This document shows, in pieces, positions 6,336-8,777 of a stretch of DNA of 35,080 nucleotides (positions are counted from its first letter, which is position 1; every line of letters starts with the position of its first letter). The DNA is from Candidatus Oceanisphaera merdipullorum (GTDB lineage Bacteria; Pseudomonadota; Gammaproteobacteria; Enterobacterales; Aeromonadaceae). A model generated the notes under the pieces. It saw nothing but the letters and a program-made list of their open reading frames with translations, had not been told where the DNA came from and did no database searches. A program made the translations under genes and the position numbers. The DNA lies in the NCBI GenBank assembly GCA_018883865.1, contig JAHLFI010000020.1, forward strand, positions 1 through 35,080, written 5' to 3'.

Positions 6336-6514
6336 ACTGCTTATTTAAGCAAGGTTACATGCTCACCTTAAAGACAAAGTTAGCTTTAGATCAAGATAAA
6401 TATAAATGCCTTCATCATTATGAGGGCCTGCTCATTTGCTGAGCATTAAAATACACAAAGCAATCAGCTACCAATCAACCACCAAAGTAAATTGCCTCTT
6501 AAAACGCGGTTATT

Positions 6515-6537
6515 TTGCATTACGCAACGACGTTGCA
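6515..6537 (+). promoter_or_regulatory. LuxO-box-like dyads
   Basis: TTGCATTACGCAA at 6515-6527 differs at one base from the TTGCA-W3-TGCAA site reported for LuxO at Vibrio qrr genes (recalled, not looked up). It overlaps a second dyad, GCAAC-GAC-GTTGC, at 6524-6536. The pair lies about 57-69 bp upstream of a -24/-12 type promoter, a usual distance for a sigma-54 enhancer. Confidence 0.5.
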
Positions 6538-6582
6538 CTATCAAAAAAGCGTCATACTCAATAAACACGGGCCTTGGCAAGT

Positions 6583-6598
6583 TGGCATGAATATTTCA
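6583..6598 (+). promoter_or_regulatory. Candidate sigma-54 promoter
   Basis: TGGCATGAATATTTCA fits TGGCAyg-N4-TTGCA with the right GG-to-GC spacing and one mismatch in the -12 element (TC in place of GC). Predicted start near 6609. No sigma-70 promoter with a normal 16-18 bp spacer is obvious here. No plus-strand protein gene follows before the terminator at 6652-6681. Confidence 0.45.
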
Positions 6599-6608
6599 TA
6601 TATAAACC

Positions 6609-6681
6609 AGTTGTTTTTATCCCGTGCTCTCTTCAGCTTATGCTGAAGTTCGGCCAACCTGCTTGGGTTGGCCATTTTTTT
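6609..6681 (+). ncRNA. Candidate LuxO-regulated small RNA
   Basis: Predicted RNA of about 73 nt. It has a single-stranded 5' part rich in U, a hairpin CTTCAGC-TTAT-GCTGAAG at 6631-6648, then a strong terminator hairpin ending in seven T. It lies in the gap between luxU and moaA, antisense to both. An upstream sigma-54-like promoter and a LuxO-box-like dyad are present. The architecture recalls Vibrio Qrr RNAs, but the conserved Qrr core sequence is not recognisable, so it is either highly divergent or an unrelated sRNA. Expression is unproven. Confidence 0.5.
6652..6681 (+). terminator. Orphan rho-independent terminator
   Basis: GGCCAACC (6652-6659), loop TGCTTG, GGTTGGCC (6666-6673), then A and seven T. 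It works only on the plus strand; the minus strand has no T run after the stem. No plus-strand protein gene lies upstream, which is the main reason to suspect a small RNA here. Confidence 0.85.
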
Positions 6682-6692
6682 GCGTACAATTA

Positions 6693-7073
6693 CTAACGCG
6701 TCTCATTTAAATAACTAGCAACCCACAATAAGGTTTCATCCAGCGCCGCCTGCCACGCCGTATATTGCACGGCTATCAATGCCGCATCACCCTGCTTGCA
6801 AGTCTGTTCGAGCTTTTCACTTAAATACTGGCAGCGCAATGCACCATAACTGCCGCACGCCGAGGTCAGGCTGTGGCACAAGCGTGCCATCTGCTGAGCA
6901 TTTTGCTCGATAAACGCCTGACTTAAAGCCTCACCTTGGGTTTGGCCATCTTCTAAAAACAACGCCAACAAACGCGCCATCACGGGTTTGGTCAGCTCTT
7001 GTGTCATGCGGCTTATCTGCTCGTCATCCATAAGCGGTAATTGGTATTGTAAACTTTGCCAATTAAGCATCAT
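6693..7073 (-). CDS. luxU: Histidine phosphotransfer protein LuxU
   Basis: A 126-residue HPt-domain protein. The phospho-accepting histidine is H67 in LCHSLTSACGSYGA, the expected HPt helix motif. In vibrios LuxU passes phosphate from hybrid quorum-sensing kinases to LuxO. The start codon overlaps the end of luxO by 11 bp (ATGATGCTTAA junction), so the two proteins are made together. Unlike in Vibrio texts that stress quorum sensing, no autoinducer kinase or synthase is in this window, so the input signal is unknown. Confidence 0.85.
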   Translation of the reverse strand: MMLNWQSLQYQLPLMDDEQISRMTQELTKPVMARLLALFLEDGQTQGEALSQAFIEQNAQQMARLCHSLTSACGSYGALRCQYLSEKLEQTCKQGDAALIAVQYTAWQAALDETLLWVASYLNETR

Positions 7074-8445
7074 GCTCGTCCCAACTTTGTAATTTGCGAT
7101 AGATAGTCGAAGGGCTAACTTCTAACAGCGCCGCCGCTCGCGACACGTTACCTTGACAGTGGCTAATCGCTCTTTCTATCGCCTTGCGTTCTAATACCGC
7201 CAGCGGCACTATGGGTGCTGGCAGCGTATCTTGTGCTAACCATTCGCCAGACATAGCCTGCGCCATGGGTCTGTCTAGTGGCGCCGGTAACATGTCCAGC
7301 TCTATCCATTCTCCTTGATGCAATACCACCGCATTGCGGATCACGTTTTGCAATTGGCGCACGTTGCCCGGCCAGTGATAGCCCTGCAGTCGGTCTTTGG
7401 TGGCTTCCGATAACCCCACAAACGACTTGCCCTCTTCGCGGGCCGCTTGGCGCACTAAGGCGGTAGCTATGCTGAGCACATCGCCGCCGCGCTCACGCAG
7501 TGGCGGCAAATTAATGGGAATCACGTGTAAGCGATAATACAAGTCCTCACGAAAGCGGCCTTGCTCCACTTCCACTAGCGGATCACGGTTGGTGGCACAT
7601 ATAATACGCACATCCACCTGAATTTGTTCCGAGCTGCCCACCGGCTGAATTTGACCCGATTGCAAGAAGCGCAATAACTTACTTTGCAGCTCCAAGTCCA
7701 TTTCGCAAATTTCATCCATGAACAAGGTGCCACCATTGGCACGGATCACGGCACCATCGCGGTCTTGCAGTGCACCGGTAAAGGCACCTTTGATATGACC
7801 AAACAGCTCGCTTTCCATCAAGTCTTTCGGAATAGCCGCGCAATTTAGCGCAATAAAAGGTCCGTCTTGTCGGCCACTACGCTGGTGCAGCGCTTCGGCA
7901 CACACTTCTTTACCGGTACCACTTTCACCGGTAATAAATACGGTGGCGCTGCTGGGGGCGGCATTCTCAATCAAACGATAGACTTTTTGCATCGGCAAGC
8001 TGGCACCAATGAAGCCTTGAAAAGGTGCGCCTTCAATGTCATGACGATAGCTGTCGAGCAGCTGATTGAGTTGGCGAAACTTCATGGTGTTATGCAAGGT
8101 GACTTTAAGCCGTTCAATTTCTATCGGTTTATTAATAAAGTCATGGGCGCCAAAACGCATCGCTTCTACCGCGACATCCACTGAGCCGTGGGCGGTGATC
8201 ACTATGGTAGTGATGTTTAATTTTTCGCGATGCAGCCACTGTAATATGTCCATGCCCGGCATATCCGGCAGGATCAAATCCAACAATAAAATATCGGGTG
8301 CATGTTGCTGTATATGCTCAATGGCCGCTTGGCCATTATTTACCACCGTCAACGACAGAGGTTCATCTTGCAAATAGGCTTGGTAAAGCGCAGCCAAGGA
8401 CGCCGTATCCTCTACCAGTAAAACATTTAGCCTTTCATCACCCAT
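7063..8445 (-). CDS. luxO: Sigma-54-dependent response regulator LuxO
   Basis: An NtrC-family activator of 460 residues. A receiver domain covers about 6-120, with the phosphorylation site D56 in DILLLDLILPD. The AAA+ domain covers about 145-380. It has Walker A GESGTGKE (173-180), the sigma-54 contact loop GAFTGA (220-225), Walker B LFMDEI (241-246) and an arginine-finger region FREDLYYRL. A Fis-type helix-turn-helix is at about 430-452 (GNVSRAAALLEVSPSTIYRKL). Being paired with an HPt gene directly downstream identifies it as LuxO rather than another NtrC relative. An AGGTGAG ribosome site precedes the ATG. In Vibrio, phospho-LuxO turns on qrr small RNAs with sigma-54; two orphan plus-strand terminators flank this gene pair. 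Confidence 0.9.
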   Translation of the reverse strand: MGDERLNVLLVEDTASLAALYQAYLQDEPLSLTVVNNGQAAIEHIQQHAPDILLLDLILPDMPGMDILQWLHREKLNITTIVITAHGSVDVAVEAMRFGAHDFINKPIEIERLKVTLHNTMKFRQLNQLLDSYRHDIEGAPFQGFIGASLPMQKVYRLIENAAPSSATVFITGESGTGKEVCAEALHQRSGRQDGPFIALNCAAIPKDLMESELFGHIKGAFTGALQDRDGAVIRANGGTLFMDEICEMDLELQSKLLRFLQSGQIQPVGSSEQIQVDVRIICATNRDPLVEVEQGRFREDLYYRLHVIPINLPPLRERGGDVLSIATALVRQAAREEGKSFVGLSEATKDRLQGYHWPGNVRQLQNVIRNAVVLHQGEWIELDMLPAPLDRPMAQAMSGEWLAQDTLPAPIVPLAVLERKAIERAISHCQGNVSRAAALLEVSPSTIYRKLQSWDEHDA

Positions 8446-8633: not shown

Positions 8634-8665
8634 TAGATTTTTCCTGCTGGTTTAGATTTTTCCTG
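8634..8665 (+). repeat. 13-bp direct repeat pair
   Basis: TAGATTTTTCCTG occurs at 8634-8646 and 8653-8665, 19 bp apart, just upstream of the orphan terminator at 8714-8742. It may be tandem protein-binding sites. TTGATG at 8628 and TTTAGA at 8651, with a 17-bp spacer, form only a weak promoter candidate overlapping them. Confidence 0.35.
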
Positions 8666-8713
8666 TAAGTGTGTTAGTAACGACAACTGTTTAGCCTTGT
8701 GGCTGCTGCGAAG

Positions 8714-8742
8714 CCAGAGTACGTGTGACTCTGGTTTTTTTT
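8714..8742 (+). terminator. Orphan terminator divergent to luxO
   Basis: CCAGAGT (8714-8720), a 7-base loop, ACTCTGG (8728-8734), then eight T. It works on the plus strand, while luxO and the nif3-like gene on either side are both on the minus strand. It therefore ends some plus-strand transcript arising in 8446-8713. That 332-bp gap holds the palindrome and direct repeats listed separately, a small AGCC/GGCT hairpin at 8693-8704, and no reading frame I can support. Confidence 0.8.
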
Positions 8743-8777
8743 ATTTTTCCTACTAGGCACTCAGGCTGCAGACGCAA

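Follow-up and report, generated by a model that had tools for sequence, protein, structure and literature searches.

A conserved small RNA family of Aeromonadales predicted to work like Qrr under LuxO and sigma-54

The output of LuxO is known so far through the Qrr RNAs of Vibrionaceae, and in Vibrio the qrr1 gene is encoded opposite luxO. LuxO sites have been published as TTGCAW3TGCAA, with those of V. fluvialis at -89 to -119 (available excerpt of PMC11443567), and ChIP in V. cholerae gave ttgcaaaatgcaa, ttgcaatttgcaa and ttgcattttgcaa as the LuxO sites of qrr1-4 (available excerpt of PMC10328515). The critical residues in the recognition helix of V. cholerae LuxO are Ser, Ile, Tyr, Arg, Lys and Leu, according to the excerpt of PMC11407668. 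In the same species, NosP inhibits VpsS, which feeds LuxU, and the output is Qrr1-4 (excerpt of PMC6769237). For Aeromonas, the link from LuxO to LitR has genetic support only in the excerpts of PMC7512022 and PMC5247445, and a word search for Qrr in these excerpts found none. No title on an RNA of the kind described below was among the literature matches listed, and its 16-letter core string occurred in no searched text.

The element described here lies in a contig of Candidatus Oceanisphaera merdipullorum; the whole stretch of DNA that was analysed, 35,080 nucleotides long, is called the window. An initial annotation had proposed a plus-strand small RNA (sRNA) gene under LuxO and sigma-54, with no Qrr sequence, between luxU and moaA. 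We found both genes on the minus strand on either side of the element, with luxO and its GAFTGA loop adjoining (Table 1). The activator dyad carries the single mismatch that the annotation had given it, and the hairpin, the terminator ending in seven T and the 73-nt RNA are all present as described. The sigma-54 element also stands where it had been placed, but it has two mismatches to the consensus and not one. The -12 C is at 6597 and the start was placed 12 bases after it, which gives the predicted start at about 6609; the centre of the dyad is 88 bp before this start. On the side away from luxU, the sRNA is flanked by moaA and its Moco riboswitch. We think it very likely, from sequence comparison, that 6515-6681 is a phospho-LuxO- and sigma-54-dependent gene for a 73-nt, Hfq-type, trans-acting sRNA with its own seed and targets. 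The RNA very probably represents a new sRNA family that works like Qrr under LuxO and sigma-54, a description that stops short of calling it a Qrr.

Table 1. Features of the sRNA locus and its neighbours, in positions of the window
Feature	Position	Strand	Basis and remarks
LuxO-type upstream activator dyad TTGCATTACGCAA	6515..6527	+	predicted; 1 mismatch to TTGCAN3TGCAA
sigma-54 -24/-12 promoter TTGGCATGAATATTTCA	6582..6598	+	predicted; 2 mismatches to TTGGCACGN4TTGCA
predicted sRNA, 73 nt	6609..6681	+	fold and conservation; start predicted 12 bases after the -12 C
unpaired core TTTATCCCGTGC, proposed pairing seed	6616..6627	+	identical in 29/29 aligned rows
hairpin 1, CTTCAGC-TTAT-GCTGAAG	6631..6648	+	fold and alignment stems
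intrinsic terminator, 9-bp stem and T7	6652..6681	+ strand only	stem 6652-6673, T7 6675-6681
luxU, Hpt phosphotransfer protein	6693..7073	-	LuxU model 35.8 bits, below the cut-off of 140; convergent with the sRNA
luxO, sigma-54 response regulator	7063..8445	-	GAFTGA loop; recognition helix SPSTIYRKL
Moco riboswitch of moaA, RF01055	6188..6340	-	73.6 bits; neighbour, outside the sRNA

Folding of 6607-6681 gave -27 kcal/mol (z -4.7), and none of 200 shuffles was equally good. The dyad was the sole match with at most one mismatch in the window, where 3.5 are expected by chance, and the sigma-54 pattern had two matches against 2.05 expected. The fold goes beyond chance. Within the 35 kb window alone, neither the dyad nor the promoter does; the significance of these two comes from their conservation across relatives.

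A DNA search with 6500-6700 as the query found the element in 70 of the 75 genomes of the family Aeromonadaceae. By genus group, the counts were 22/23 in g1 (the window's own group, Oceanisphaera and Zobellella), 36/37 in g2 (Aeromonas), 0/1 in g3, 3/3 in g4 and 9/11 in g5. The five genomes without the element are G031 (80% complete), G072 (87%) and three that are at least 91% complete (G038, G056 and G071). Oceanimonas marisflavi (L008) has the element too, and the element of the Aeromonas genome G024 matches the Aeromonas caviae record NZ_AP026896.1 at 95.9%; the record is almost unannotated and carries no annotation at the match. PLSDB lists this 4.9-Mb record (L364, L365) as a plasmid, although it looks like a chromosome. 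BLAST matches were obtained in 69 of 140 loci, and exactly those 69 have the promoter element GGCA(T/C)...CAT, followed by TTTATCCCGTGC and then by a T-run; they comprise 59 distinct promoter-plus-RNA sequences and 54 distinct RNAs, and some genomes are represented twice. BLAST of the sRNA against 5,426 E. coli genomes and against phages gave no match. A search of 6480-6720 against Rfam 15, which may not hold a Qrr family, gave nothing at E up to 1.

In an alignment of 29 chosen rows, 98.6% of the 435 stem cells are paired, and at most 45% were paired when the stem partners were slid by 1 to 3 columns. Changes on both sides of a stem pair were found in 15 cells, compared with 5.2 in shuffles; most pairs are invariant, and the two-sided changes are confined to 3 of the 15 pairs. 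The stem changes are compensatory, and the consensus consists of two helices. The initial annotation had named three marks of such a gene, namely conservation in relatives, stems that covary and an unpaired 5' segment that is conserved. All three were found, the last of them as the invariant core. We regard it as virtually certain that the RNA gene is real.

Within 200 bases upstream, TTGCAN3TGCAA with at most one mismatch occurs in 40 of the 54 distinct loci, the window included, whereas shuffles gave a mean of 2.1 and a largest count of 6. Perfect dyads are present in 18 of the 54 loci, against 0.09 expected. Six loci have no dyad even at two mismatches, namely L002, L003, L084, L086, L123 (window's genus) and L011, the upstream stretch of L011 being interrupted by the locus end; L124, to judge from its length the same contig, has two perfect dyads upstream. 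Several dyads, in loci of the family and of the second family described below, equal the V. cholerae LuxO sites letter by letter, as given in the excerpt of PMC10328515. The best match of the window's LuxO is the Vibrio LuxO model, at 652 bits and below the cut-off of 800, and its recognition helix retains the residues that are critical in V. cholerae LuxO according to the excerpt of PMC11407668. On this sequence evidence, we are highly confident that LuxO or a LuxO-like activator, together with sigma-54, would be what drives the sRNA gene.

A model built from the 29 rows was searched over 394 genomes of the order with E up to 0.01. It matched in 55 genomes, of which 34 belong to family f1, 8 to family f3 and 13, with weak matches, to neither. 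Family f3 is probably Succinivibrionaceae, another family of Aeromonadales, and at least one f3 genome (G076) has no match to the model. The core was absent from the three of the 13 weakly matching genomes that were read, and also from a second weak match of G051. All eight f3 loci found by the model keep TTTATCCCGTG; their stems and terminator differ from those of f1, and hairpin 1 is replaced in L167-L169. A LuxO-type dyad with at most one mismatch is present in the 320 bases upstream of all eight, and seven have two or more, so that the total is 19 sites, compared with 0.06 in single-base shuffles. The promoter pattern TGGCA...TT(T/G)C is found in seven of the eight, the exception being L166. 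The f3 neighbours are a hybrid kinase gene and cysK in one locus, ZupT and minCD in another and cmoM in a third, and no luxO lies beside the sRNA in the stretches read. Conservation, the excess of LuxO-type dyads and the lack of an Rfam match support an sRNA of LuxO and sigma-54 without Qrr sequence. The guess of a LuxO circuit sRNA outside Vibrionaceae is likewise supported, with a range that appears wider than the initial annotation had supposed, taking in Aeromonadaceae and a second family of the order.

The gene order in g1 is luxO, luxU, the convergent sRNA and moaA, which is farther off in a few loci; where the locus extends that far, ybgI precedes luxO. In locus L011 of g4, luxO and luxU are followed by a FIST gene, a hybrid kinase gene and the sRNA. 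The Aeromonas genomes G024 and G009 have luxU, a cofD-like gene in the opposite orientation (L354, L355), the FIST gene, the hybrid kinase gene and the sRNA, and no luxO between luxU and the sRNA in the stretches read. A 36% identical sigma-54 response regulator is encoded directly before ybgI in G009, and a 58% identical LuxO-like protein is encoded elsewhere in the A. caviae record. In the g4 genome G062 (L356), luxU adjoins the sRNA and a HAMP histidine kinase gene is divergent, and the 12 kb of sequence read there showed no luxO. In g5, exonuclease I (xonA) adjoins the sRNA, and no luxO was found in 20 kb of two genomes. The core persists across these changes of neighbour, from luxU/moaA to FIST-kinase, xonA, minCD and cysK-kinase. 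NosP of V. cholerae is a FIST-type protein, and the FIST gene beside the hybrid kinase gene is NosP-like. Because NosP-VpsS feeds LuxU in V. cholerae, nitric oxide is, by analogy, a plausible input where the FIST and hybrid kinase genes adjoin luxU, that is, in Aeromonas and one sister lineage.

A second conserved element, with a GGCTGCTGCGAAACCAGGGTA-type stem, lies at 8640-8750 (+) between luxO and ybgI and has a strong terminator at 8710-8738. It is present in 43 of the 75 family genomes, and in g1 the motifs upstream of it are TTAAC...GTTAACAT and TGACTCATTTGTCAC. The search of the window with at most one mismatch found no LuxO dyad at this element, and no sigma-54 element was seen by eye. 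It is possibly another sRNA, at the place of Vibrio qrr1.

In the mechanism that we propose for 6515-6681, kinases would signal through LuxU to LuxO, and the phosphorylated LuxO would bind upstream and switch on the sigma-54 promoter. The resulting 73-nt RNA would be of the Hfq type and act in trans; its U-rich 3' end is compatible with Hfq dependence. The unpaired 5' half, UUUAUCCCGUGCUCUC, would pair with the ribosome-binding sites of target mRNAs and presumably repress them. Its action would be Qrr-like, with another seed and other targets than Vibrio Qrr, and in Aeromonas and the sister lineage the NosP-like partner of the hybrid kinase may add nitric oxide to the signals received.

The shared promoter logic and LuxO motif, together with the linkage to luxO in the window's genus, would also suit a genuine Qrr, orthologous to Vibrio qrr1 but far diverged in sequence. 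We consider this rather improbable. The sRNA lies downstream of luxU and not opposite luxO, and it has one hairpin and a terminator where the V. fluvialis Qrr has four stem-loops. A Qrr core pattern, used without a positive control, was absent from 142 loci, and the Rfam search was negative at E up to 1. Candidate Vibrio control loci had no exact LuxO dyad, and seven had no Rfam match, so these loci are probably paralogues and provided no Qrr control. It was because the number of stem-loops differs and no Qrr core was recognised that the RNA was not filed as a Qrr. Its own core, moreover, is invariant, so that drift from Qrr would need to have stopped. The same dyad could also serve another sigma-54 regulator, SypG-like or NtrC-like, with LuxO a mere neighbour: SypG of V. 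fischeri uses the upstream sites of LuxO at qrr1, the Aeromonas, g5 and f3 stretches that were read have no luxO next to the sRNA, and G009 has its 36% identical regulator before ybgI. This is unlikely in our view, as the window's LuxO has the recognition-helix residues published in the excerpt cited above and A. caviae encodes its LuxO-like protein elsewhere.

A role in cis, with luxU or the kinase gene insulated or repressed by the convergent transcript or the terminator, would fit Aeromonas, where the RNA stops at the 3' end of the kinase gene. However, g5 (with exonuclease I) and the typed f3 loci have unrelated neighbours and the core is nevertheless invariant, and the T-run serves the plus strand only. 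The invariance of the 5' core speaks against a cis terminator, because a terminator needs no such core, and we give the cis role very little credence. An ATG in the hairpin loop of the window copy might suggest that the transcript encodes a small protein, but this ATG is not conserved, the loop varying between species, and conservation tracks the stems and not codons, which leaves a coding function scarcely credible.

We rejected LitR as a common target of the sRNA. LitR was found in 37/37 genomes of g2 and 2/3 of g4, and in 0/23 of g1, 0/11 of g5 and 0/1 of g3, which rules it out as a target common to all; a pairing site predicted for one Aeromonas litR leader varies between species. The window's genome has 11 exact GCACGGGAT sites, one of which is the sRNA itself, and none lies within 120 bases before the start of an ORF of at least 80 residues. 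The pattern CACGGGATA-N2-20-ATG gave 26 matches in six genomes (4 in the sRNA gene itself and 22 otherwise), compared with 16 for a reversed control; core complements are hardly enriched before start codons in general. In the window's genome, the only leader with CACGGGATA is that of the type VI secretion gene tssA (L282, 1501-1530), where CACGGGATAATAATAATG places a core complement at the start codon; the other five of the six genomes showed none. We retain tssA as a weak candidate target, found in one genome only, because that genome is the window's own. A Qrr of V. fluvialis also targets type VI secretion mRNAs. Leader matches of AsmA and TauE/SafE were each present in one of the six genomes.

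When the pattern was searched over the 75 genomes, galE leaders were recurrent in Aeromonas among the matches listed, which did not extend to g1, g4 and g5. A GalE search in nine Aeromonas genomes found a close orthologue in eight and only a 63% identical copy in G028. An ACGGG-type site lies at the ribosome-binding site in all eight galE leaders. The genomes are related, and three of them had already shown the pattern in the 75-genome search. Pairing of the sRNA with these eight leaders averaged -18.6 kcal/mol, compared with -10.1 kcal/mol for shuffled RNA, and 0 of 300 shuffles were as strong. Elsewhere galE was at chance, with 83/300 for six distant copies and 91/300 for ten genes of other genera; the window's own galE, G065 and two f3 leaders stood outside this test. 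Since galE was chosen by the pattern search before the test, it is a supported and not a proven candidate, and we propose it only tentatively as a target in Aeromonas. Three further candidates were set aside. The best duplex among 28 genes of the window was that of moaA, with a site in the riboswitch region and pairing that ranges from -11.6 to -23.1 kcal/mol between relatives. The recurrent CACGGGATAAAATG-type matches read at rimK (L305, L314, L318) are on the reverse strand of the rimK start, in the same sense as the sRNA, and the match assigned by eye to recF/gyrB is located within coding sequence.

The element is a candidate for the missing output of LuxO across Aeromonadaceae, and it makes the function of LuxO testable in Aeromonas and its relatives. 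We see an even chance for a broader reading, in which two families of Aeromonadales have a LuxO-dependent sRNA of their own with the universal seed UUUAUCCCGUG and need no master regulator of the LuxR/HapR type. LuxO circuits would then be an older signalling module whose sRNA output differs by lineage. In Aeromonadales this output would relay signals from kinases, nitric oxide possibly among them, and its targets would include galE in Aeromonas and, in the window's species, type VI secretion through tssA. The element itself suggests that RNAs unrelated to one another can serve as outputs of a single activator module.

GlmY and GlmZ are sigma-54-dependent sRNAs of enterobacteria whose activator sites differ from those here. 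The element resembles them as an sRNA under a sigma-54 activator and differs from them in having no Rfam match. In Aeromonas and L011, a FIST gene followed by a hybrid kinase gene in the luxU gene row recalls the NosP-VpsS-LuxU system of V. cholerae, in which the output is Qrr1-4 (excerpt of PMC6769237), whereas here an unrelated sRNA ends the gene row. With the Qrr RNAs of Vibrionaceae, the element shares the sigma-54 promoter, the upstream TTGCAW3TGCAA sites, the predicted input from LuxU and LuxO and a terminator-ended RNA. It differs from them in its core, in its place downstream of luxU or elsewhere, in its one hairpin and terminator within 73 nt, compared with SL1-SL4 in the V. fluvialis Qrr, and in its persistence in genera without a LitR/HapR match (g1 and g5).
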